Source of the DNA: Methyloversatilis sp. RAC08
GTDB lineage: Bacteria; Pseudomonadota; Gammaproteobacteria; Burkholderiales; Rhodocyclaceae
Reading direction: 5' to 3'
Length of the DNA stretch: 64,000 nucleotides
Assembly (NCBI RefSeq): GCF_001713355.1
Contig: NZ_CP016448.1
Coordinates: 558,001 to 622,000, forward strand
The position numbers and the translations under genes are program-made. A model generated the notes under the pieces. That model had not been told where the DNA came from and did no database searches. It worked only from the letters and a program-made list of their open reading frames with translations. Positions 8,865 to 25,337 of the stretch are shown here, piece by piece (within the stretch, counting starts at the first letter, position 1; each line of letters begins with the position of its first letter).

Positions 8865-10490
8865 ATGACTATTGCTGAATCGACCCAGAAGCTCGACCGC
8901 ACAGCGGAACTGCCGGAAGGCGTGATCATCACCGCGCCGGTCAGCGCCGAGTACCGCGAAATCCTGACGCACGAAGCCCTCGCGCTGCTCGCGAAGCTGC
9001 ACCGTCAGTTCGAGCCTCGTCGTCGCGAAGCGCTCGCCGCGCGTGTCAAGCGCGCTGCCGAACTCGACGCCGGCATGCCGATGGACTTCCTGCCCGACAC
9101 GCTGCATATCCGCGAAGGCAACTGGAAGATTGCACCGCTGCCCCCGGCGCTCCAGCGCCGACGCATTGAGATCACCGGGCCGACCGAGCGCAAGATGGTG
9201 ATCAACGCGCTGAATGCCGGCGCCGACAGCTACATGAGCGATTTCGAAGATTCGAATTCGCCGTCGTGGGACAACCAGATCACCGGACAGATCAATCTGC
9301 GCGACGCCATCCGCCGCACCATCAGCGTCGAGAAGGACGGCAAGACCTACGCGCTGAACGATGAAGTGGCCGTGCTCCAGGTGCGTCCGCGCGGCTGGCA
9401 CCTCGACGAGAAACATGTGCTGATCGATGGTCAGCGCGTGTCCGGCGGCCTGTTCGATTTCACGCTCTACTTCTTCCACAACGCGAAGGAATTGATCGCT
9501 CGTGGCGCTGGCCCCTTCTTCTATCTGCCGAAGCTGCAGAGCCACCGCGAGGCGCGGCTGTGGAACGACGTGTTCGTCGCTGCCCAGGAGGCCCTCGGCA
9601 TCCCGCGCGGCACGATCAAGGCCACGGTGCTGATCGAAACGCTGCATGCCGCGTTCGAAATGGACGAAATCCTTTACGAACTGCGCGATCACAGTGCAGG
9701 CCTGAATGCCGGCCGCTGGGATTACATCTTTTCCTGCATCAAGGCCATGCGCAACAACCGCGACTTCTGTCTGGCTGACCGCAGCAAGATCCTGATGACA
9801 GTGCCGTTCATGCGCGCGTACGCGCTGTCGCTGATCAAGACCTGCCACAGGCGCGGCGCACCGGCGATCGGCGGCATGAGCGCGCTGATCCCGAACAAGA
9901 AGGATCCGGACGCGAACGAAAAGGCGCTTGCCGGCATCCGCGCCGACAAGCATCGCGATGTGACCGATGGCTACGACGGCGGCTGGGTGGCACACCCGGG
10001 TCTGGTCGCACCGGCGCTGGCGGAATTCGTCGCCGTGCTGGGCGACCGCCCGAACCAGTTCGACAAGCAGCTTCCGGACGTCAATTACGGCGCCGCCGAC
10101 CTGCTCGACTTCCGTCCCGAAGGCCCGATCACGGAAACCGGCCTGCGTACCAACATCAATGTCGGCATTCACTATCTGGGCGCCTGGATGGATGGCAACG
10201 GGTGCGTGCCCATCCACGGTCTGATGGAAGATGCCGCAACGGCCGAAATCAGCCGGGCTCAAGTGTGGTCCTGGATCCGCAGCCCCAAGGGCATTCTGGA
10301 CGACGGTCGCAAGGTCACGGCAGACATGGTGCGGGCGCTGATCCCGCAGGAACTGGACAAGATCAAGGCGCTGCTTGGCGCCGGCTACAAGGACACCTAC
10401 ATGCGCGCCGCCAACCTGTTTGGCGACATGTGCGTGGCCACCGAACTGGCCGACTTTCTGACGCTGCCGGCTTACGAACGCATGGAGTAA
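8865..10490 (+). CDS. aceB: Malate synthase A
   Basis: 541 aa from the ATG at 8865 (E. coli AceB is 533). Condenses glyoxylate with acetyl-CoA to malate. Visible catalytic elements are the RPRGWHL arginine region, the SDFEDSNSPSWDN acidic motif, YLPKLQSHREARLW, VLIETLHAAFEMDEI, and GRWDYIFS. The frame is open about 77 codons further upstream, but that extension is not family-like; GGAG at 8852 supports the chosen start. Together with aceA it completes the glyoxylate bypass. The two genes are separated by a lysR gene rather than forming a single operon. Confidence 0.96.
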   Translation: MTIAESTQKLDRTAELPEGVIITAPVSAEYREILTHEALALLAKLHRQFEPRRREALAARVKRAAELDAGMPMDFLPDTLHIREGNWKIAPLPPALQRRRIEITGPTERKMVINALNAGADSYMSDFEDSNSPSWDNQITGQINLRDAIRRTISVEKDGKTYALNDEVAVLQVRPRGWHLDEKHVLIDGQRVSGGLFDFTLYFFHNAKELIARGAGPFFYLPKLQSHREARLWNDVFVAAQEALGIPRGTIKATVLIETLHAAFEMDEILYELRDHSAGLNAGRWDYIFSCIKAMRNNRDFCLADRSKILMTVPFMRAYALSLIKTCHRRGAPAIGGMSALIPNKKDPDANEKALAGIRADKHRDVTDGYDGGWVAHPGLVAPALAEFVAVLGDRPNQFDKQLPDVNYGAADLLDFRPEGPITETGLRTNINVGIHYLGAWMDGNGCVPIHGLMEDAATAEISRAQVWSWIRSPKGILDDGRKVTADMVRALIPQELDKIKALLGAGYKDTYMRAANLFGDMCVATELADFLTLPAYERME

Positions 10491-10514
10491 GCCTTACCCA
10501 CCGCAGCATCACTG

Positions 10515-10542
10515 ACGGCACCCCACAAGGGTGCCGTTTTTC
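10515..10542 (+). terminator. Terminator after aceB
   Basis: The stem ACGGCACCC/GGGTGCCGT with a short loop is followed by T residues, about 25 nt after the aceB stop codon. Confidence 0.9.
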
Positions 10543-10576
10543 TTTTCGCCCGACTCTCGCCGGGAGCGGAAACAGA

Positions 10577-10602
10577 AAAGGCCCGGAAACCGGGCCTTTT
10601 TG
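10577..10602. terminator. Second hairpin terminator between aceB and the cytochrome gene
   Basis: AAAAGGCCCGG-AAA-CCGGGCCTTTTT is a symmetric stem with A and T runs on both sides. It lies 27 nt past the stop of the reverse-strand cytochrome gene, so it probably serves that gene. Confidence 0.85.
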
Positions 10603-10628
10603 CATTCGTTCAGTGCGTCTGTGCGCAC

Positions 10629-11012
10629 TTACTCCATCGGGAAAACCTTGCCCGGGGCGATCTTGCCATCGGAACGACCCTTGAGGTAGGCGTACAGGCT
10701 GTCGGCCTTCTCGCCCTTCAGGAAGGGGTGCGGCGGCATGCCGCGATCAGCATGCGAACCTTCAACCACAATCTGGAGAAACTCTTCCTTCGGGACCTTC
10801 TTCAGGCTTTCGATCAGCGACGGACCGACCATGCCTTCCTGGTTGGCACCGTGACAGCGCTCACACGCCGCGGCACGCCAGGTACGCCAGCCGGTCATCG
10901 TCTTGGCGTCAACCTTGTTGCCTTCGGCAACGGTATAGGGGGCTGCGTCCTGCGCCATGGCTGTAGCCGCCATTGCAGCGAGCACGATGCCTACCAATTG
11001 TTTGCGAATCAC
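10629..11012 (-). CDS. Small periplasmic c-type cytochrome
   Basis: 127 aa from the GTG at 11012. An Sec signal peptide (residues 1-20, ending AMAQ) precedes one haem site CERCH with distal Met candidates (GMVGPS, GMPPHP). The body ending LYAYLKGRSDGKI resembles cytochromes that accept electrons from PQQ-dependent alcohol dehydrogenases; that link is inference. The start codon is non-ATG: an upstream TTG at 11018 sits only 2 nt from the AGGAG, while the GTG has the normal 8-nt spacing. A close paralogue anchored as a lipoprotein is encoded at 55765-56304. Confidence 0.8.
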   Translation of the reverse strand: MIRKQLVGIVLAAMAATAMAQDAAPYTVAEGNKVDAKTMTGWRTWRAAACERCHGANQEGMVGPSLIESLKKVPKEEFLQIVVEGSHADRGMPPHPFLKGEKADSLYAYLKGRSDGKIAPGKVFPME

Positions 11013-11194
11013 GATCAACTCTCCTCGAATAATGGGTGATGGTGCAGTTGGAAAAACGAATGCTCAGGCCAAAAGGATTACATGACCTGCGATAAACAAG
11101 AGATAAGTATCTGCTTATGGCTTTAACCCATCGAACTTATAATGTTATCGCGTGACTCCCGTTAAAAAAAGGGATGGCACAAACTTTCAAATAA

Positions 11195-11644
11195 TCAAAG
11201 GCTTCCGGTCGAACCGAAGCCACCTTCACCGCGCGATGACGCATCGAACGTGTCGACACGGCGCAGCTCCACCTGTACGACCGGTACAACCACGAGCTGT
11301 GCAATACGTTCCATCGGTTGAAGGACAAACGCCGTGTCACCCCGGTTCCACAGCGACACGAAAATCTGTCCCTGGTAGTCGGAATCGATCAGCCCGACCA
11401 GATTGCCCAGCACGATGCCGTGCTTGTGGCCCAGACCGGAACGCGGCAGCACGATTGCCGCCAGGCCGGGATCGGCCAGATGAATGGCGATGCCGCTCGG
11501 CACGAGCAGCGTGTCGCCCGGATTGACGGTGGTCGTCGCCTCGATGCAGGCACGCAGATCGAGGCCGGCCGAGCCGGCCGTCGCATAAGCCGGCAGGGCA
11601 TCGTTCAGGCGTGGGTCAAGAATCTTGTAGTCGAGCACGGACAT
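11195..11644 (-). CDS. dut: dUTP diphosphatase
   Basis: 149 aa, normal for the trimeric enzyme that hydrolyses dUTP to dUMP and keeps uracil out of DNA. The five motifs are visible: [38 protein letters not shown] and the C-terminal [10 protein letters not shown]. It follows coaBC with a 7-nt gap on the reverse strand, the arrangement found in E. coli (dfp-dut), so the two are likely co-transcribed. Confidence 0.96.
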
Positions 11645-18077: not shown

Positions 18078-18509
18078 ATGGAACGCAACACGCGCCAGCG
18101 CAGCGCCATACTGGGATCAATCGAAACCGCCGCCCGGCCGTTGTCGCCGGCGGAAATCCACGAGCTGGCGCGGACCGACATTCCGGCGCTCGGGCTGGCG
18201 ACCGTCTATCGCAACATCCGCATGCTGATCGACGACGGCCGCATCCGCGAGGTCGACCTGCCCGGCGAGCCGCCGCGCTATGAACTCGCCAATCTGGGCC
18301 ACCACCACCACTTCAAGTGTCGTCAGTGCGACCGCGTGTTCGACATCGTGGAATGCGCCACCGACTGGAACCGCCTCGCTCCGGCCGGTTTTTCGGTCGA
18401 ATCGCATGACGTGACGCTGTTCGGCCGCTGCGACCAGTGCGGAGGCGAACGAAATGAGGGTGAAGCCGTGCCCGCGCACGTGCATCACCCCGGTCATACG
18501 CACGACTGA
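18078..18509 (+). CDS. zur: Fur-family regulator, probably the zinc repressor Zur
   Basis: 143 aa from the ATG at 18078. The N-terminal winged helix includes PAEIHELARTDIPALGLATVYRNIRMLID. The C-terminal dimerisation domain has the GHHHHFKCRQCDRVFDI metal site and two CxxC pairs (CRQC, CDQC) typical of a structural zinc. A His-rich C-terminus (HVHHPGHTHD) is present. The next 7 kb encode a ZnuD-like receptor, PEP-CTERM proteins, a DUF1826 protein and a COG0523 GTPase, which points to zinc rather than iron as the signal. The frame is open upstream, but MERNTRQRSAILG is the natural start. Confidence 0.72.
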   Translation: MERNTRQRSAILGSIETAARPLSPAEIHELARTDIPALGLATVYRNIRMLIDDGRIREVDLPGEPPRYELANLGHHHHFKCRQCDRVFDIVECATDWNRLAPAGFSVESHDVTLFGRCDQCGGERNEGEAVPAHVHHPGHTHD

Positions 18510-18522
18510 CGGGTCGGCAGGA

Positions 18523-19242
18523 TCAGCCCTGGCGGCGACGGCGCATCACGCCGATCAGCCCCAGGCCGGCGGCCAGCATCGCCCAGGTGCCCGGTTCCGG
18601 CACCGGAGCCAGCAGCGTTCCCACCGCACCTTCGAACACCTCTTCATCCAGCCCGCTGTTGAACGCCAGATAGAACGGTGTCGAAAAGCCCCAGTCGTCC
18701 GGCGCGCCGATTTCCAGCGTGATCAGATAAGCGGCTGCCGTGGCGGCGCCGTCGCCGGAAATCGTGAAATCGAGGTGGGCGTGAATGTCGCCCGCACCCG
18801 AGACCTGGGCGATCGCGCCGACCGGATTGCTCACCCCGGTCGAACTGAAAAGGGTATTCAGGCCCAGCACGTCGAGGATGCCGAGCGTCACGCCCGACGC
18901 GGCGGTCGACCACGTTGAACCGTTCCACGACTGCAGCACGCCGATACCCCGGTAGCGAATGATGGCGCCGACGGGCAATGCGTCGTCTTCCGAAATGAAT
19001 CCCGGGTCGTCGGTCGAGAACAGGCCGCCGGCAAAGTCGCGGAAGTCACCTTCGAACAACGCATAGCCGTTGGCGGCGCGCTCGGCCAGGCCTTCCGGAT
19101 CGACGACGATGACGCCGCCAGCCACGCCCAGTTCGACATCACCGGCGTGCAGATGCTGCGCCTGCGCGGCACCGGCGGTCAGGAACAGCGCGGCCGACAG
19201 GCCGATGGCACGAAAAAATGGGGCAACGGACAACAGATTCAT
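18523..19242 (-). CDS. PEP-CTERM sorting-domain protein A of the zinc locus
   Basis: 239 aa. A signal peptide (residues 1-29, ending AGAAQAQ) is followed by HLHAGDVELGV and a beta-rich body. The C-terminus is VPEPGTWAMLAAGLGLIGV plus RRRR, the exosortase recognition tail: PEP motif, hydrophobic span, basic end. It is paralogous to the protein at 21513-22358; both share a GDF-DF-GG-STDDPGF block and HAHLD. Function is unknown. It is divergent from the TonB receptor gene across a candidate Zur site, suggesting a zinc-regulated surface or matrix protein. Confidence 0.82.
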   Translation of the reverse strand: MNLLSVAPFFRAIGLSAALFLTAGAAQAQHLHAGDVELGVAGGVIVVDPEGLAERAANGYALFEGDFRDFAGGLFSTDDPGFISEDDALPVGAIIRYRGIGVLQSWNGSTWSTAASGVTLGILDVLGLNTLFSSTGVSNPVGAIAQVSGAGDIHAHLDFTISGDGAATAAAYLITLEIGAPDDWGFSTPFYLAFNSGLDEEVFEGAVGTLLAPVPEPGTWAMLAAGLGLIGVMRRRRQG

Positions 19243-19340
19243 GATGAGAACTCCCGACAAGGGTGAAAGGGAAACGGGGCGCAAGAGCAGACGGACGCAG
19301 CGCTCGACCACAGTTCGCGGCCGCTGTTTGTTGATACCGC

Positions 19341-19353
19341 GTTATTATTATCA
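19341..19353. promoter_or_regulatory. Candidate Zur operator (site 1)
   Basis: GTTATTATTATCA, or TGATAATAATAAC on the other strand. It lies in the divergent region 36 bp before the TonB receptor ATG and about 100 bp before the reverse-strand PEP-CTERM gene. It shares TGATAA with sites 2 and 3 and resembles the AT-rich palindromes bound by proteobacterial Zur. By eye only. Confidence 0.45.
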
Positions 19354-19388
19354 TATTTTCGTCGCCGCGCATCTCCTTCCGCACCCCC

Positions 19389-21503
19389 ATGTCCCGAAAC
19401 ACCATCCCATCGCGCAGGGTGCGCCTGCGCTGGCTGCTGGTCGCCCACCTGCCACTGCTCGGCCTGCCATGCCAGCCGGCCGCAGCCCAGGCCGAACTGC
19501 CGGAGGTGAAGATCGAAGCAGAGCGCCTGCCTGACACCCCGACCGAGCCGGCTGGCCGCGCCAGCACGCTGCGCGGCGAGGCGCTGCGCGATCGCAAGGC
19601 GGGCACGCTGGGCGAAACGCTGAGCGAAGAAGCCGGCGTCCACAATGCATCCTTCGGCACCGGCGTCGGCCTGCCGGTAATCCGCGGACTGGGCGGCGCA
19701 CGGGTGAAGGTGCTGAACAACGGGGGCGGCACGCACGACGCCACCACCTTCAGCCCGGACCACGCCTCGACCGCCGATGCCACGCTGGCCGACAGCATCC
19801 GCATCCTGCGCGGCCCGGCCACCATCCGGTATGGCGGCGGTGCCATAGGCGGTGTGGTCGACGTCAGCGACGAGCGCATCCCGACCCGGGTGCCGGCGCG
19901 CGCGATCAGCGGCTCGCTCGACACCAGCTTCAACCGCAATGGCGCCGAACGCGTGCATGCCCTGCGGCTGGATGGCGGAAATGCGCTGTTCGCGCTGCAC
20001 GGCAGCGCGCTGAGTCGCGACCGCGGCGACAGCCGCATTGCCGGTTGCGCCATCGACGATGCGGCGGTCGAACAGCAGTTCGGGCTGATCAACACGCGCA
20101 ACAGCTGCGGCCGGCTGTACAACAGCGATGCGCGGTCGGCATCCGGCACGCTGGGCGGCAGCGTGTTCCTGGGCAACGCACTGTTCGGCGCCGCGGTCAA
20201 CAACGCATCGAACGAATACGGCATTCCGCCTGCGCCCGGGCACAGCCACGGTGGCGACGACCGGGTGCGCATCCGCATGGACAACCGCCGGGTGGATACC
20301 CGCGCCGAGTGGTTGGGCGATGGCTGGCTGCAGGCCTTGCGCTACACAGGTGGCCATATCGACTACCGGCACGACGAAGTCGACGAAGGGGTGGTGGCCA
20401 CCACCTTCCGCAACAAGGCGATCGAACAGCGGCTGGAACTGGAACATGCTTTCGGCGAACATCTGAGCGGCACGCTGGGCGTGCATCACCTGCGGCGCGA
20501 TTTTTCGGCGCTCGGCGCGGAAGCGTTCATCCCGCAGACCGGGCTGCGCAGCTCCGCGGTCTACGCGGTGCAGCGCGTGCGTGTGTCGGACTGGACGCTG
20601 GATCTGGGCTGGCGCGGCGAAATCACCCGCGTGCAGGCCGGTGATCGAGAGCTGGCTGGCGGCTTCACGGTGAGCTTTCCGGCGCGCCGCTTCAACACGC
20701 AGAGCACTTCGGCCGCGCTGAGCTGGCAGCTCAGCGAACCGATGTCGCTGACGCTGACCGGGTCGAACGCGCGCCGCGCGCCCGACATCCACGAGCTGTA
20801 TTCGCTCGGGCCGCACTTCGCGACCCGCACCTACGACATCGGCGACCCCGACCTCAAGCCGGAAACCGCGCGTTCGGTCGAACTGGGCGGGCTGTACGAG
20901 TCGGGCAGGCTCAGGCTGTCGGCGAACCTGTTCGCCAACGACATCGACGACTACATGTTCCAGCGCACGCTGCCGGTGTTCTACGACACCGACGAGGAGC
21001 AGTTCCGCTTCGCCTGCGTGCGGCTGGAGGAGTGCCTGACTGTCGTGCAATACACGCAGAGCCGCGCGCGCTTTCGCGGCTTCGAAGCGGAAGCCGCGCT
21101 CAAATGGACGGCCACGAAACTGGGCGACATCGAGTGGTCGGTGTTCGGCGACCGCACACGCGGGCGCCTGACCGAACTGGGCGAAGATGTACCGCGACTG
21201 CCCGCGTTCCGGGTGGGCAGCCAGCTCGCGTTGCGCCAGGGCGCCTGGTCAGGGCGCGTGCGGGTGACCCACCACGCGGCGCAGGATCGGCCGGGCGCGA
21301 ACGAAACCACGACTGGCGCCTACACACTGGTCAGCGCCAATCTGAACCACGTCCGTGCGCTCGGCGACGGCCGCACGCTGACGCTGTTCGCGCGCGGCCG
21401 CAACCTGCTCGACCGCGAGGCGCGCAACGCCACGTCCTTCCTGCGCAATTTTTCGCCCGAACCCGGGCGCAGCATCGAAGTCGGTCTCAGCCTGACCTTC
21501 TGA
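19389..21503 (+). CDS. TonB-dependent outer-membrane receptor, ZnuD-like
   Basis: 704 aa. A signal peptide (about 1-34, ending AAAQA) leads into a plug domain (about 40-160) with LPEVKIEAERL, DSIRILRGPATIRYGGGAIGGVVDV, then a 22-strand-type barrel ending in the terminal aromatic signature IEVGLSLTF. Histidine-rich elements occur in the plug and loops (HSHGGDD near 295, FSPDHAS). ZnuD of Neisseria is the zinc- and haem-responsive member this most resembles, and the neighbouring Zur-like regulator and COG0523 GTPase support zinc uptake. It is flanked by two paralogous PEP-CTERM genes on the opposite strand. Confidence 0.8.
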   Translation: MSRNTIPSRRVRLRWLLVAHLPLLGLPCQPAAAQAELPEVKIEAERLPDTPTEPAGRASTLRGEALRDRKAGTLGETLSEEAGVHNASFGTGVGLPVIRGLGGARVKVLNNGGGTHDATTFSPDHASTADATLADSIRILRGPATIRYGGGAIGGVVDVSDERIPTRVPARAISGSLDTSFNRNGAERVHALRLDGGNALFALHGSALSRDRGDSRIAGCAIDDAAVEQQFGLINTRNSCGRLYNSDARSASGTLGGSVFLGNALFGAAVNNASNEYGIPPAPGHSHGGDDRVRIRMDNRRVDTRAEWLGDGWLQALRYTGGHIDYRHDEVDEGVVATTFRNKAIEQRLELEHAFGEHLSGTLGVHHLRRDFSALGAEAFIPQTGLRSSAVYAVQRVRVSDWTLDLGWRGEITRVQAGDRELAGGFTVSFPARRFNTQSTSAALSWQLSEPMSLTLTGSNARRAPDIHELYSLGPHFATRTYDIGDPDLKPETARSVELGGLYESGRLRLSANLFANDIDDYMFQRTLPVFYDTDEEQFRFACVRLEECLTVVQYTQSRARFRGFEAEAALKWTATKLGDIEWSVFGDRTRGRLTELGEDVPRLPAFRVGSQLALRQGAWSGRVRVTHHAAQDRPGANETTTGAYTLVSANLNHVRALGDGRTLTLFARGRNLLDREARNATSFLRNFSPEPGRSIEVGLSLTF

Positions 21504-21512
21504 AGCCGACGT

Positions 21513-22358
21513 TCAGCCTCGGGCGCGCCGCGCCGCCGCGGCGCACAGACACAAGCCGGCCAGCATGGCCATCCAGGCAGCCGGCTCGGGCACCGGTGCC
21601 AGCGCCCGCGCGAGAAAGGCTGTTTCGTACTGCGCCGCGCTAAGCCCGTAGTTGAACACCACATGAAAAGGGTCGGAATCGACGTACAGGCCGCGACCGC
21701 CGACCGACGCCTCATCGGTCAGCTGCAGCGTGACCATGTAGGCACCGCTTGCTGCAGCGCCTTCGATGTACCAGTCGAGATGGGCGTGGAAAGCGCCGTT
21801 GCTGCCGGCATCATCAATCGTGGCCGTCACCGGACCGGCGATGCCAGTGCCGGTGAACAAGGTGCCCGCGGAATAGAGATTGAACGCGGCGGCTGCGCCC
21901 GGCGGTGCGAGACGCGGATTCACCAGCGATTGAATGTAGGCGTTGGCCACCGCAGGCGGCACGGCACCGAACAGGCGCACGCCGACGCCGCTGTAGGCGG
22001 TCGTCCATTCGCCGGTCGCTGGAGTCCATTGCTGCAGCGTACCCAGCGCACGGAAGCCGATGAAGTCGCGCGCGCTTGCGCTGCCGGACAGCGCACCCGC
22101 AAAGGCCTGAAAACCCGGATCGTCGGTGCTTTTCGGCCCGCCCTCGAAATCGCCGAAATCGCCCGGAAACAGCGCATGGCCGGTCAGGTAGTCGAAGGGC
22201 TGGGTATCGAAGGGCAGGTCGCCATAGGCACCGGTGATCAGCTGACTGCCGGCCACCGGGCCGTTGTCGAGGCTGATCGACACATCGAAATGGATGGCGT
22301 GGGCCGACACGGCATGCAGCATCAGCAGGCCGAAGGCAAGTCGGGGCAGGACGGACAT
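21513..22358 (-). CDS. PEP-CTERM sorting-domain protein B of the zinc locus
   Basis: 281 aa. A signal peptide (1-21, ending HAVSAHA) precedes IHFDVSISLDNGPVAGSQL and the block FPGDFGDFEGGPKSTDDPGF shared with protein A at 18523-19242. FHAHLDWYIEG and YMVTLQLTD also align with protein A. The tail is VPEPAAWMAMLAGLCLCAA followed by RRARG. It is convergent with the TonB receptor gene and divergent from the third PEP-CTERM gene across two candidate Zur sites. Role unknown; a metal-binding or receptor-associated surface protein is one possibility. Confidence 0.82.
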   Translation of the reverse strand: MSVLPRLAFGLLMLHAVSAHAIHFDVSISLDNGPVAGSQLITGAYGDLPFDTQPFDYLTGHALFPGDFGDFEGGPKSTDDPGFQAFAGALSGSASARDFIGFRALGTLQQWTPATGEWTTAYSGVGVRLFGAVPPAVANAYIQSLVNPRLAPPGAAAAFNLYSAGTLFTGTGIAGPVTATIDDAGSNGAFHAHLDWYIEGAAASGAYMVTLQLTDEASVGGRGLYVDSDPFHVVFNYGLSAAQYETAFLARALAPVPEPAAWMAMLAGLCLCAAAARRARG

Positions 22359-22388
22359 GGCGGGAACTCCGAGCGAGACGATAGCTGA

Positions 22389-22405
22389 TGATAACGCATT
22401 GCTAT
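22389..22405. promoter_or_regulatory. Candidate Zur operator (site 2)
   Basis: TGATAACGCATTGCTAT lies about 31 bp upstream of the reverse-strand PEP-CTERM gene B start at 22358. It matches the TGATAAcG half of site 3. Weak as a palindrome. Confidence 0.35.
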
Positions 22406-22432
22406 TTACAACAGTGCGCAAGCGGCTTATCT

Positions 22433-22451
22433 TGATAATACGTTATCGTTA
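22433..22451. promoter_or_regulatory. Candidate Zur operator (site 3)
   Basis: TTGATAATACGTTATCGTTA contains the near-perfect palindrome GATAA-TACG-TTATC (22434-22447). It lies about 45 bp before the ATG of the PEP-CTERM gene at 22492, overlapping where a promoter would be. Confidence 0.45.
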
Positions 22452-22491
22452 GTGAATGCGCATCCCACCCCACCCCTGAAGGAGCTGTTTC

Positions 22492-23331
22492 ATGATCAGA
22501 TCAAGTCTGCTGGTGCTGGCCGGCGTGCTGTCGCTGGGCGCCCAGGCCAGCGAGCCGCTGCGCGGCGACGAAGGCATCGGTTACTACGTTGCCGTGGATT
22601 CGCTGGCGACCATCGCATCGGGCACCTATGCCGGACAGGCCAACCCGAATTACGGGCGCCTGACCTTCCTGTTCGACCACGGCAATCACTTCCACGGCAT
22701 TGGCGCCTACAGCTACACCGGCCCGGGCAGCGCACCGGTGGTCAATGGCACCAACGCGAACAACCGCATCCCGGAAACCTACACGCTGGCCGCCCCCCTG
22801 CCGCTGACGGCGGGCAGCGGCAGCTACGCCGGTCTGCTGGTCAGCGGTGTATTGCCCGAATCGGCCCTGCAGCATGAATACAGCTATCTCGGCATGTCAT
22901 CCATCCAGTCGCTGGCGGGCAACCCGGCAGGCAGCGAACGTGATGTGCTGTTCAACAGCAGTGGAGGCCGCTGGAACGGCACGCTCGACAACGTGAGCGT
23001 TGCGCTCAAGCTCGAATCGATCACGCCGGGCCTGAAGGTGGCTGCCAACGGCGACACCGACCTGTTCGACACAGGCAATCTTTACCTGCTCGGCGCCGGC
23101 AACAGCTTCGACTTCCTTCCGGTGTTCTGGACCGCTGCCGGTGCCGCCCCCGGCACCTACAGCGCACAGTTCTCGCTGGTCAACCTGGGCAGCAATCTGG
23201 CCGTACGCGACAGCGGCACCTTCCATTTCGACTTTGCCGTCGCGGCACCGGTGCCCGAACCCGGCACCTGGGCCATGCTGCTCGGCGGCCTTTTCATGAT
23301 CGGTCTGACCGCCGCTCGCCGCGCCCGCTGA
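22492..23331 (+). CDS. PEP-CTERM sorting-domain protein C, all3515-type
   Basis: 279 aa. A signal peptide (1-20, ending LGAQAS) is followed by a His-containing body (FLFDHGNHFHGIGAYSYTGPG) and the tail VPEPGTWAMLLGGLFMIGLT plus AARRAR. The GNHFHGIGAYSYTGP region resembles the family annotated as all3515 Zur-repressed PEP-CTERM proteins; I recall this from family naming and could not search. A good GAAGGAG ribosome site precedes the start. The DUF1826 and GTPase genes follow on the same strand, so this is probably the first gene of a zinc-regulated operon. Confidence 0.8.
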   Translation: MIRSSLLVLAGVLSLGAQASEPLRGDEGIGYYVAVDSLATIASGTYAGQANPNYGRLTFLFDHGNHFHGIGAYSYTGPGSAPVVNGTNANNRIPETYTLAAPLPLTAGSGSYAGLLVSGVLPESALQHEYSYLGMSSIQSLAGNPAGSERDVLFNSSGGRWNGTLDNVSVALKLESITPGLKVAANGDTDLFDTGNLYLLGAGNSFDFLPVFWTAAGAAPGTYSAQFSLVNLGSNLAVRDSGTFHFDFAVAAPVPEPGTWAMLLGGLFMIGLTAARRAR

Positions 23332-23409
23332 ACCTGACCGGCGGGCAGGCCTGCGCCACCCGCCGGGTCAGGGCTCTCTGAACAACATGCTCTGGCCTGC
23401 ACGCCCACC

Positions 23410-24057
23410 ATGAACAAACGTGTATACATCGCCATCGCGCCGCCCTGTCCCGTCACGCGCGACGTCAGCGAACCGGCGGATCTGGCGCTTGTTCTCGATC
23501 CGGACTGCAATCTGGTCCGTCTTGCACGGCCACTGTCGGCCGGGCTGACCGACTATCTGCAGGCTGCCTGCGCAACGGGTGCGCTGCGCAGCGGACTGCG
23601 TACCGAACTTGAGCCCGGCGAAACCCTGGCCGCCGATGCCCTGCCCGATCTGTCAGGACGCGACGCCCTGCGCGAAGAGGTGCGACAGCTCGCATCACTG
23701 CTGGCCGATCTCACCGATTGTCCGAAAGTGGCCGTTCGCATCGAAGTACTCGAACGCGCCATGTGCCCGCGCCTGCATATCGATCACGTGGGCCTGCGCC
23801 TGCTGTGCACCTGGATCGGACCGGCCACCGAATGGCTGGCCGATGCCGACGCCGACCGCAGCCGGCTCGGCACCGATGACGTGATGCCTGATCCGTCGGC
23901 ACTGCGCCGTGCCGACGCCGGCGACATCCTCGTCCTGAAGGGCGAAGGCTGGCCGGGCAATGCCGGCCATGGCGTGATCCACCGGTCGCCGGCGCTGACA
24001 CCGGCGCAACCGCTGCGTATCATCGCGGCGCTCGACGCGCTCTTCCCCATGCCCTGA
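23410..24057 (+). CDS. DUF1826 domain protein
   Basis: 215 aa, the usual family size. Recognisable parts are PKVAVRIEVLERAMCPRLHIDHVGLRLLCTWIGPATEWL and the C-terminal GDILVLKGEGWPGNAGHGVIHRSP. Together they give H-x-D and a later His arranged like a metal-binding double-stranded beta-helix; this reading of the fold is inference. No signal peptide, so cytoplasmic. DUF1826 genes commonly sit beside COG0523 GTPases in zinc-responsive loci, as here (83 bp upstream of the GTPase). No strong ribosome site is seen. Confidence 0.8.
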   Translation: MNKRVYIAIAPPCPVTRDVSEPADLALVLDPDCNLVRLARPLSAGLTDYLQAACATGALRSGLRTELEPGETLAADALPDLSGRDALREEVRQLASLLADLTDCPKVAVRIEVLERAMCPRLHIDHVGLRLLCTWIGPATEWLADADADRSRLGTDDVMPDPSALRRADAGDILVLKGEGWPGNAGHGVIHRSPALTPAQPLRIIAALDALFPMP

Positions 24058-24140
24058 CATCGCACAGCGGTCTGCCCGACAGACCCCGAAGTCCGGACAA
24101 GGCCGGGGCCGTCACCCGACCTTCTGCCCGGACAACCGAC

Positions 24141-25337
24141 ATGCCCGCCATCCTTCCCGTCACCCTGCTTTCCGGCCTGCCCGGCGCCGGAAAAACCACG
24201 TTGCTGAGGCACCTGCGCAATCAGTCCGACGGACAGCGCATCGGCCTCATCGTCAATGAACTGCGCAGCGTCGACATCGACGCTGCAACCGGCGCGGCGC
24301 CAGACGACGTACTTGTCTGCCTGTCGCCGCACGACATGCAGGCCGCCGCGGCGCACTTCGCGCAAGCCGACTTCGACGCGCTGGTCGTCGAGCCCTCGGG
24401 TTTTTCGGAACCGACCGGCATGGTTGAAACCTTCCGTACAGGACTGGGCCAGCACGCCCGCTTCGACACGCTGGTCACGGTGCTCGACGCATGGAACTTC
24501 TACCGCGACTATTTCAGCCGCGACACCGTTGCACAGCGCATGGCAAGCCTGGGGGTGCCGGCCGGAAACGATCAGCGTACGGTGATCGACGTGCTGCTCG
24601 ACCAGGTCGAATTCGCCGACGTGATCGTGCTGAACAAATGCGATCTGGTGAACGATCAGCAGCGCGGCATCCTGCTGGGCATGCTGCGCGCACTCAATCC
24701 GCGGGCGGACCTGATCGAGGCCACGCACGGCCGGGTCGCTGCGGCAAGCGTGCTCGGCACCGGACGTTTCGACCCCGACGCCACGGCTCGTTCCGCCGGC
24801 TGGATGCAACTGATGCGCGGCTCTCCGGTTCCCGAAACGCCAGCCTTCGGCATCCGCAGCTTCACCTGGCAGGCGCGCCGGCCCTTCCATCCGATGCGCT
24901 TTGCACAGCTGATCCACGAAAAGTGGCGCGGCGTGCTGCGCAGCAAGGGCTATTTCTGGCTCGCAAGCCGCAACGGTCACATCGGCGAGTGGGAACAGGG
25001 CGGCGCGATCAGCCGCCTGCGCTCCGGCGGCCACTGGTGGTGTTTCACGCGCGAGGAGGAGTGGCCGCAGGAGGCGGGCCACCTGGCCCACATCCGGTCA
25101 CGCTGGGACGAAACCTGGGGCGATCGCCGGCAGGAACTCGTATTCATCGGCATGGGCATGGATGAGGCCGCGCTGAAGCGCCGCTTCGACGAGTGCCTGC
25201 TGACCGATGAAGAAATGGGCTTTGGCGAAAGCGCCTGGGCCAACCTGACTGATCCGCTGCCCGCGTGGCACGAAGATCACGATGAAGGTGGGCATGGCGA
25301 CCACCCGGGCGACGCCCCCGGGCCGGGCCGCCACTGA
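24141..25337 (+). CDS. COG0523 (CobW/ZigA-like) GTPase lacking the CxCC motif
   Basis: 398 aa. G3E-family GTPase: Walker A GLPGAGKTT (12-20), switch region VVEPSGFSEP, NKCD base-recognition motif, and a CobW C-terminal domain (about 245-370). The C-terminus is His- and Asp-rich (HEDHDEGGHGDHPGD), as in zinc-related members. The conserved GCxCC metal-transfer motif that should follow the NELRSVDID segment is absent; that position reads DDVLVCLSPHDMQ, with a single Cys. Members of this group are proposed zinc metallochaperones. The change is in a normal-looking full-length protein, so it does not look like a pseudogene. Confidence 0.85.
   Translation: MPAILPVTLLSGLPGAGKTTLLRHLRNQSDGQRIGLIVNELRSVDIDAATGAAPDDVLVCLSPHDMQAAAAHFAQADFDALVVEPSGFSEPTGMVETFRTGLGQHARFDTLVTVLDAWNFYRDYFSRDTVAQRMASLGVPAGNDQRTVIDVLLDQVEFADVIVLNKCDLVNDQQRGILLGMLRALNPRADLIEATHGRVAAASVLGTGRFDPDATARSAGWMQLMRGSPVPETPAFGIRSFTWQARRPFHPMRFAQLIHEKWRGVLRSKGYFWLASRNGHIGEWEQGGAISRLRSGGHWWCFTREEEWPQEAGHLAHIRSRWDETWGDRRQELVFIGMGMDEAALKRRFDECLLTDEEMGFGESAWANLTDPLPAWHEDHDEGGHGDHPGDAPGPGRH

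Follow-up and report, generated by a model that had tools for sequence, protein, structure and literature searches.

The window analyzed here, a stretch of 64,000 nucleotides from Methyloversatilis sp. RAC08 (bases 558001-622000 of its genome, G000, a single contig of 3.94 Mb), contains a locus in which genes for a Fur-family regulator, a ZnuD-like TonB-dependent receptor, a DUF1826 protein and a COG0523 GTPase are interleaved with three genes for PEP-CTERM proteins. One of the three encodes ZepA; the other two, for which we use the working names P2 and P4 (coordinates in Table 1), encode paralogs. We find that P2 and P4 belong to one family that accompanies a single clade of ZnuD-like receptors, with a family member located within 0.5 kb of such a receptor in 19 of the 19 genomes (12 genera) found to carry the family. 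We regard it as reasonably likely that this is a zinc-starvation acquisition locus under a Zur-type regulator, in which P2 and P4 are zinc-binding, co-receptor-like partners of the receptor. The two proteins are probably dedicated surface partners of this ZnuD sub-clade that bind zinc, a reading of both binding and partnership that is drawn from sequence.

Linkage of the P2/P4 family to the receptor

The family was sought in three partly overlapping genome samples, at the level of the order (399 genomes), the class (350) and the phylum (279). The P2/P4 profile A1 detects it in 14 of 399 order-sample genomes, while the wider profile A6 detects it in 5 of 350 class-sample genomes (4 beyond the source genome) and in 2 of 279 phylum-sample genomes, one of them new (G850). 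Both profile searches scored the best 7 to 10 candidates per genome and may therefore have passed over further members. A contig scan with P2 as the query returned four loci, and plasmid records held no relatives of P2 or P4. For the linkage count, ZnuD-like receptors were defined by BLAST matching to that of the window (E ≤ 1e-20 over >100 residues). In each of the 17 genomes read, a family member lies within 316 bp of such a receptor, and in the source genome the distances are 12 bp (P4) and 146 bp (P2). Outside Methyloversatilis, 33 of 39 domain matches lie within 1.2 kb of a ZnuD-like receptor; besides members in L028 and L069, which are taken up below, the exceptions are one in L076 (contig end), two in L068 and one in L102, the last three at 3.4 to 4.5 kb.

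The usual module has one P4 and one P2, with two P2 genes in G468 and G597 and a lone P2 besides two modules in G005; the module of G052 is cut by a contig end. In G850, which was found after the linkage rule had been formed, P2, receptor and P4 are consecutive on one strand (L160:6120-10056). The first-pass annotation had named absence of the PEP-CTERM genes from most orthologous loci as an outcome that would speak against its reading. Such absence did not occur, and some genomes carry the domain with another tail.

The possibility that the family follows ZepA only was considered and rejected, because ZepA was not found in G025, G072, G274, G516, G468, G597 or G645. ZepA is present in 12 of 399 order-sample genomes; in this sample, it occurs without the family in G016, and the family occurs without it in G025, G072 and G274. 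In the class sample, ZepA was found in the source genome alone. No ZepA is present in the 17 kb locus of G850, where a genome-wide search for it was not made.

The receptor clade

In a tree of 44 receptors, 19 module rows and the receptor of G183 form one group of 20 (support 100/100), and the 24 others fall outside it. This midpoint-rooted tree excludes the partial row of G052 and a pair of near-identical Methyloversatilis rows. L112, L125 and L128-L150 make up its 25 non-module rows, and receptor matches without an assigned locus do not enter it. Such a receptor is found at E ≤ 1e-80 in 36 genomes from a 200-genome sample of the order. Eight matches exceed 440 bits (G000, G175, G005 with two, G029, G183, G072, and G025), and G183 is the only genome among these without the partner family. 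In ordinary ZnuD-like loci, the partner family is present in none of the six that were read, three of which have COG0523 and Fur-family genes alongside; beyond these six, its absence refers to the A1 profile search of the order sample.

The available portions of PMC4557270 describe D99, H100, E340, and H499 as the high-affinity zinc ligands of ZnuD. Using the alignment to 4rdr and a chain offset of 14 (the first aspartate is D99 by this offset, and is printed as D90 in those portions), these residues map to D124, H125, E330, and H476 of the window receptor. Of 21 full-length module receptors, 20 retain all four; near-identical Methyloversatilis sequences account for four of these rows. The receptor of G274 has Leu in place of H100, the partial G052 row keeps both ligands that it covers, and the G850 receptor carries the same three short ligand motifs. 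The four ligands are also present in L112, a second ZnuD-like receptor of the source genome, and missing in two other receptors of that genome; its ten further receptors had no match at E ≤ 1 that would allow the comparison. The four ligands are a trait of ZnuD and not special to the module. The NCBIfam model of ZnuD (NF038289, cut-off 950 bits) matches the window receptor at 324.4 bits, and the three receptors scanned against it reach 279-338 bits.

P2 and P4 as one family

P2 and P4 share 33% identity over 209 columns (E = 3e-21). Neither is visibly related to ZepA, with which only the tail of P4 aligns. Pfam and NCBIfam scans of the two proteins, and of those relatives that were scanned, gave nothing convincing beyond the PEP-CTERM tail, and the best match of the family profile to PDB sequences has E = 0.95. 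Judged by eye, the mature proteins start with QHLHAGD (P2) and IHFDV (P4), and on reading neither has a lipobox cysteine after the signal peptide. In a tree of 41 partner domains, the P4 type forms one group of 18 (100/99) and the P2 rows are more diverse; this tree omits the L009 and L010 rows, fragments in L029 and L076, and G850, which was found later.

An HxH motif is present in 40 of 41 partner domains. The exception is a row of G274 that a quick BLAST had labelled P4, yet which is placed elsewhere in the tree on a long branch. Both partner domains of G850 show HSH on reading. Many P2 rows also begin with a His-rich stretch (e.g. QHLHAGD, EHLHEGD, or DHDHGGH, with the signal peptide again judged by eye), and zinc is the likely ligand because of the HxH motif and these N-terminal histidines. 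A P2-type protein of G645 (L102:4933-6396) has a long C-terminal extension that ends in an HD repeat.

P2 and P4 could instead capture or present a zinc complex, a zinc protein or a zincophore—i.e. not the metal ion—with that complex as the real substrate of the receptor. Their linkage is indeed with the receptor, co-receptors such as TbpB bind a carrier protein, and the failure to find ZepA in seven family-bearing genomes means that the partners need not serve ZepA. We nonetheless consider this unlikely, given that the nearly invariant HxH, the His-rich P2 N-termini and the HD repeat of G645 point to binding of the metal itself.

Exchange of anchors

In the window, P2 and P4 both end in PEP-CTERM tails, and the same domain carries other C-terminal parts elsewhere. 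For example, the P4 domain of G468 and G597 forms the front of an autotransporter that has a beta-domain of its own, and their P2 proteins carry VPxPA-type tails at the end. Kelch repeats follow the P4 domain in G645, no tail is seen on the G850 partners, and one of the two G005 modules has ordinary PEP-CTERM partners. Exosortase genes were found in all 12 genomes tested, a set that includes G274, G468, G597, and G645 (G850 lay outside it), and therefore the change of anchor in these four does not come from exosortase loss. The source genome itself has two exosortase matches.

Autotransporters carry passengers to the cell surface. Being fused to autotransporters in G005, G468, and G597, the partner domain is placed at the surface there, which by analogy suggests the same placement in the remaining genomes, including those with PEP-CTERM forms.

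Two observations on individual genomes concern these anchors. The partners of G274 (L075:7089-7982 and 10243-11292) share a C-terminal stretch without a Pfam match, WAES..YP..FP..GYYARCY..SVCVG, in place of PEP-CTERM. In the other module of G005, a stop-free frame of 2145 residues (L068:3225-9659, minus strand; G005:C1:362225-368659) runs from a P4 domain through passenger repeats and an autotransporter beta-domain to a receptor plug and barrel, and no Met separates the end of the autotransporter from the plug. This frame may be one polypeptide with two outer-membrane barrels, or an assembly artefact.

The presence of three PEP-CTERM proteins, as proposed in the first-pass annotation, is confirmed by a genome scan in which all three tails exceed the Pfam cut-off of 20.7 bits (39, 27.1, and 23 bits). 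When tails are scored as single proteins, that of ZepA is borderline for Pfam (PF07589, 20.1 vs 20.7 bits) and passes TIGR02595 (19.6 vs 16), while those of P2 and P4 score as given in Table 1. The source genome has 78 PEP-CTERM matches and seven clusters (at least three matches within 5 kb) where chance would give 0.33, and we therefore rejected the idea that three adjacent PEP-CTERM genes are striking in themselves.

This abundance of matches and clusters, and the general tie of PEP-CTERM proteins to the biofilm matrix, would suit a reading of P2 and P4 as passive components of biofilm or matrix whose only tie to the zinc genes is co-regulation, e.g. during surface remodelling under zinc limitation. 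We find that improbable, as P2 and P4 follow one receptor clade across the 12 genera, and the anchor changes while the domain and its neighbor stay. A co-receptor or metal-capture partner fits better than a matrix protein, because receptor and domain are constant and anchor and ZepA are variable.

Three more TonB receptors of the source genome (L104-L106; G000:C1:3799229, 975736, and 3635654) have PEP-CTERM genes within 1.5 kb. Including that of the window, 4 of 14 receptors have a PEP-CTERM gene nearby, compared with 0.74 expected and with 20 of 5000 random trials as high. The pairing of receptors with PEP-CTERM proteins may be a wider theme.

Regulator and promoter sites

By sequence, the closest solved relatives of the Fur-family protein are 3mwm/7vo0 (metal uptake regulation), with 2o03 (FurB, zinc uptake regulation) third, followed by Fur and PerR. 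The protein scores 16.5 bits against the NCBIfam Zur model NF008646 (cut-off 167), and its best NCBIfam match is a PerR model, below that model's cut-off. A palindrome, TGATAANNNNTTATCA, is present three times in the two divergent promoter gaps of the locus (Table 1), and the copy at 22433 is the sole place in the 3.94 Mb genome with no more than one mismatch to it. The available portions of PMC10957091 report a 16-bp palindrome upstream of zepA in Proteobacteria. The site between P2 and the receptor is retained at two mismatches in the Methyloversatilis loci L009, L010, and L011, and the P4 and ZepA sites are retained more weakly. In G384, which belongs to another genus, a 10.5 kb contig has three places with ≤2 mismatches to TGATAANNNNTTATCA—i.e. 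upstream of P4, between receptor and P2, and between Fur and ZepA.

The E. coli Zur motif, taken from the available portions of the review PMC6103462, is not matched in the window's promoter gaps even when up to three mismatches are allowed. It matches the P2/receptor gap of G516 at 20 of 20 positions, with a second site at one mismatch, where 0.003 full matches are expected in the locus (first-order Markov control). Upstream of P2, both G645 and G850 have a two-mismatch site of this type (about 125 bp from the P2 frame in the latter), and a one-mismatch site lies upstream of the G183 receptor, all of them in AT-richer loci and without a control; G645 has a further two-mismatch place (8668) away from the genes concerned. 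The promoter gap of G597 has two places with three mismatches. By eye, GTTGCAT-like words lie between receptor and P2 in L029, L035, L070, L071, L072, and L074, and are perhaps another type of operator.

The first-pass annotation had proposed zinc as the signal, and the ZepA assignment, the four ZnuD ligands and the promoter sites back this reading; zinc control in this organism is what these sequences would predict. A receptor for a different ligand (e.g. haem or another metal), with zinc not being the signal, seems very improbable to us: haem-receptor models match the receptor too, below their cut-offs, and sequence cannot fix the metal of a Fur-family protein (a point also made in the available portions of PMC10957091), but ZepA, the four ligands, ZnuD as best solved relative and the Zur-type sites all indicate zinc.

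Proposed mechanism and its weighing

We propose that, as zinc falls, the Zur-type regulator would leave both divergent promoters, and that ZepA, the receptor of the ZnuD clade, the DUF1826 protein, the COG0523 protein, and the P2/P4 pair would then be made. P2 and P4, as two types of one beta-rich family, would be displayed at the surface beside the receptor. There, they may bind zinc through the conserved HxH and, in many P2 proteins, the His-rich mature N-terminus, and may hand it to the receptor in the fashion of co-receptors. A bolder form of this proposal, which we hold only tentatively and at somewhat less than even confidence, is that this ZnuD branch evolved a three-protein surface machine consisting of the receptor and two paralogous zinc-binding co-receptors, P2 and P4, with the means of display (exosortase tag, autotransporter, Kelch fusion or no anchor) free to change as long as domain and receptor remain linked, and with ZepA either feeding the machine or competing with it.

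Several points weigh against the co-receptor proposal. The G183 receptor (L151:7534-9825) falls in the module clade and has no partner genes, the G254 receptor has P2 alone (its P4 lies with ZepA on another contig), and the family members in L028 and L069 have no ZnuD-like receptor in the 19-20 kb read. Because scoring covered at most the best 5 to 10 first-look candidates per genome, failure to find a match does not prove absence. The co-occurrence of the family with ZepA in 11 order-sample genomes, compared with 0.42 expected, ignores relatedness, five of the 14 genomes being from one genus. The pattern TGATAANNNNTTATCA was derived from the window's own sites, and the window's share of its matches at ≤2 mismatches (two of 18 places genome-wide, where the reversed pattern has three places in all) is therefore partly circular, G384 being the independent case; in most module loci, neither motif has a convincing site in the promoter gap. 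Finally, the structure models are weak (mean predicted local distance difference test scores of 68.1 for P2 and 59.4 for P4, with the N-terminal His region below 50). Foldseek with the P2 model gave no match at E ≤ 0.001, its best being a pilin (E = 1.5e-3, template modelling score 0.38) that was not used. The models indicate only a beta-rich family, and histidines forming one site could not be seen in them.

To our knowledge, most PEP-CTERM proteins have no assigned function. A family that follows one receptor clade, carries a conserved HxH and has interchangeable anchors makes both zinc delivery by ZepA and PEP-CTERM function testable, in an environmental genus that is harmless. If the bolder, three-protein form of the proposal is true, PEP-CTERM proteins would gain a defined role as partners of TonB receptors, and further receptors of this genome might be served in a similar way.

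Gene content of the locus

From 17269 onward, open reading frames and domain scans give the order HAD phosphatase, Fur, P2, receptor, P4, ZepA, DUF1826 and COG0523 (Table 1). The first-pass annotation's set of Fur regulator, ZnuD-like receptor, DUF1826 protein and COG0523 protein is borne out by open frames and domain matches, and all genes of the locus are open frames where it had placed them. It had also suggested seeking the same order in relatives. The locus is shared by three named Methyloversatilis assemblies (P2 identity 88-91%), with the order unchanged in L009 and L010 and the same set minus ZepA in L011. In that locus, no ZepA gene lies between DUF1826 and P4 (6617-6885), and P2, P4, receptor, DUF1826 and COG0523 are kept.

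Table 1. Features of the zinc locus, in window coordinates.
Feature	Position	Strand	Evidence
Fur-family regulator, probably Zur	18078..18509	+	PF01475, 75.5 bits
P2, exported PEP-CTERM protein of the receptor-partner family, IHAHLDF motif	18526..19242	-	PF07589, 37 bits; paralog of P4
Putative Zur site, P2/receptor divergent promoter gap	19332..19347	.	TGATACCGCGTTATTA, 2 mismatches to TGATAANNNNTTATCA
ZnuD-like TonB-dependent receptor	19389..21503	+	Best solved relative ZnuD 4rdr, E = 9.1e-59
P4, exported PEP-CTERM protein, second type of the partner family, FHAHLDW motif	21516..22358	-	PF07589, 24.4 bits; P4-type tree group
Putative Zur site, P4 side	22389..22404	.	TGATAACGCATTGCTA, 3 mismatches; weak alone
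Putative Zur site, ZepA side	22433..22448	.	TGATAATACGTTATCG, 1 mismatch; best match of the genome
ZepA (all3515 family, Zur-repressed PEP-CTERM protein)	22492..23331	+	NF040463, 298 bits
DUF1826 protein	23410..24057	+	PF08856, 171.5 bits
COG0523 GTPase, divergent ZigA-like, no CxCC	24141..25337	+	PF02492, 97.7 bits

The COG0523 GTPase is present as first proposed, with both the CobW nucleotide-binding domain (PF02492) and the C-terminal domain (PF07683) matched, but it is not of the typical form. All 4 Methyloversatilis copies examined have lost the stretch that would hold the CxCC metal motif, and the score against NF038288 is 396.5 bits, under the cut-off of 600. Four of five other copies have CICC, and the fifth (L152) is without that stretch in the frame used. 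The window protein also has a His/Asp-rich tail.

The window ZepA passes the NF040463 cut-off of 75 bits and covers model positions 1-227 of 227. The available portions of PMC10957091 (2024) assign a zinc-handling role to Anabaena ZepA, and extend it by an E. coli assay to homologs from Proteobacteria, Nitrospirota and the PVC group. By analogy with these homologs, we infer that the window ZepA is an exported zinc-handling protein. The same portions place genes for FUR-family, COG0523, receptor and further PEP-CTERM proteins next to zepA, propose that ZepA passes zinc to an outer-membrane receptor, and state that the route of zinc from ZepA into the cell is unknown. Methyloversatilis is not named in the main text as available.

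Comparison with known systems

The core of the locus, ZepA with zinc genes, is already known from PMC10957091, in the portions available. As in the ZepA/all3515 system described there, the window has a full-length ZepA with Fur, COG0523, receptor and PEP-CTERM neighbors, and a receptor is proposed to take part. By contrast, those portions treat the neighboring PEP-CTERM proteins as a group and name no family, although Fig. 7A of that paper may show them, whereas here two PEP-CTERM proteins form one family that follows a ZnuD clade, also where ZepA was not found. The first-pass annotation's main idea, that PEP-CTERM proteins take part in zinc capture or receptor function, is thus largely known through ZepA homologs. 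What gains new support, from the linkage in 19 of 19 genomes, is such a role for P2 and P4, as one family tied to the receptor and not as PEP-CTERM proteins in general. Among open-licence papers, searched by titles and the starts of abstracts (with subscription papers, figures and supplements outside the search), the ZepA paper is the only one found to connect PEP-CTERM or exosortase with zinc or TonB co-receptors.

The module receptors resemble Neisseria ZnuD (4rdr; PMC4557270, available portions) in having plug and barrel, the four ligands and a His-rich stretch where a ZnuD loop has one, but they form a separate clade with its own partner genes and score below the NCBIfam cut-off. In azurin-OprC copper uptake (cited in the available portions of PMC10957091), an exported metal protein likewise interacts with a TonB-dependent receptor, but the metal is copper and the proteins are others. 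The ZepA and ZnuD-like parts of the locus are known; the P2/P4 family and its association with a single receptor clade appear to be new.

TbpA/TbpB and HpuA/HpuB are pairs of a TonB-dependent receptor and a surface co-receptor, and the module shares with them a TonB-dependent receptor encoded beside dedicated surface proteins. It differs from them in that P2 and P4 have no lipobox cysteine and no sequence relation to their co-receptors was found, in having two types of partner, and in its display by exosortase tag or autotransporter. If the proposed partnership is true, it would represent a zinc co-receptor principle separate from the lipoprotein co-receptors of Neisseria.

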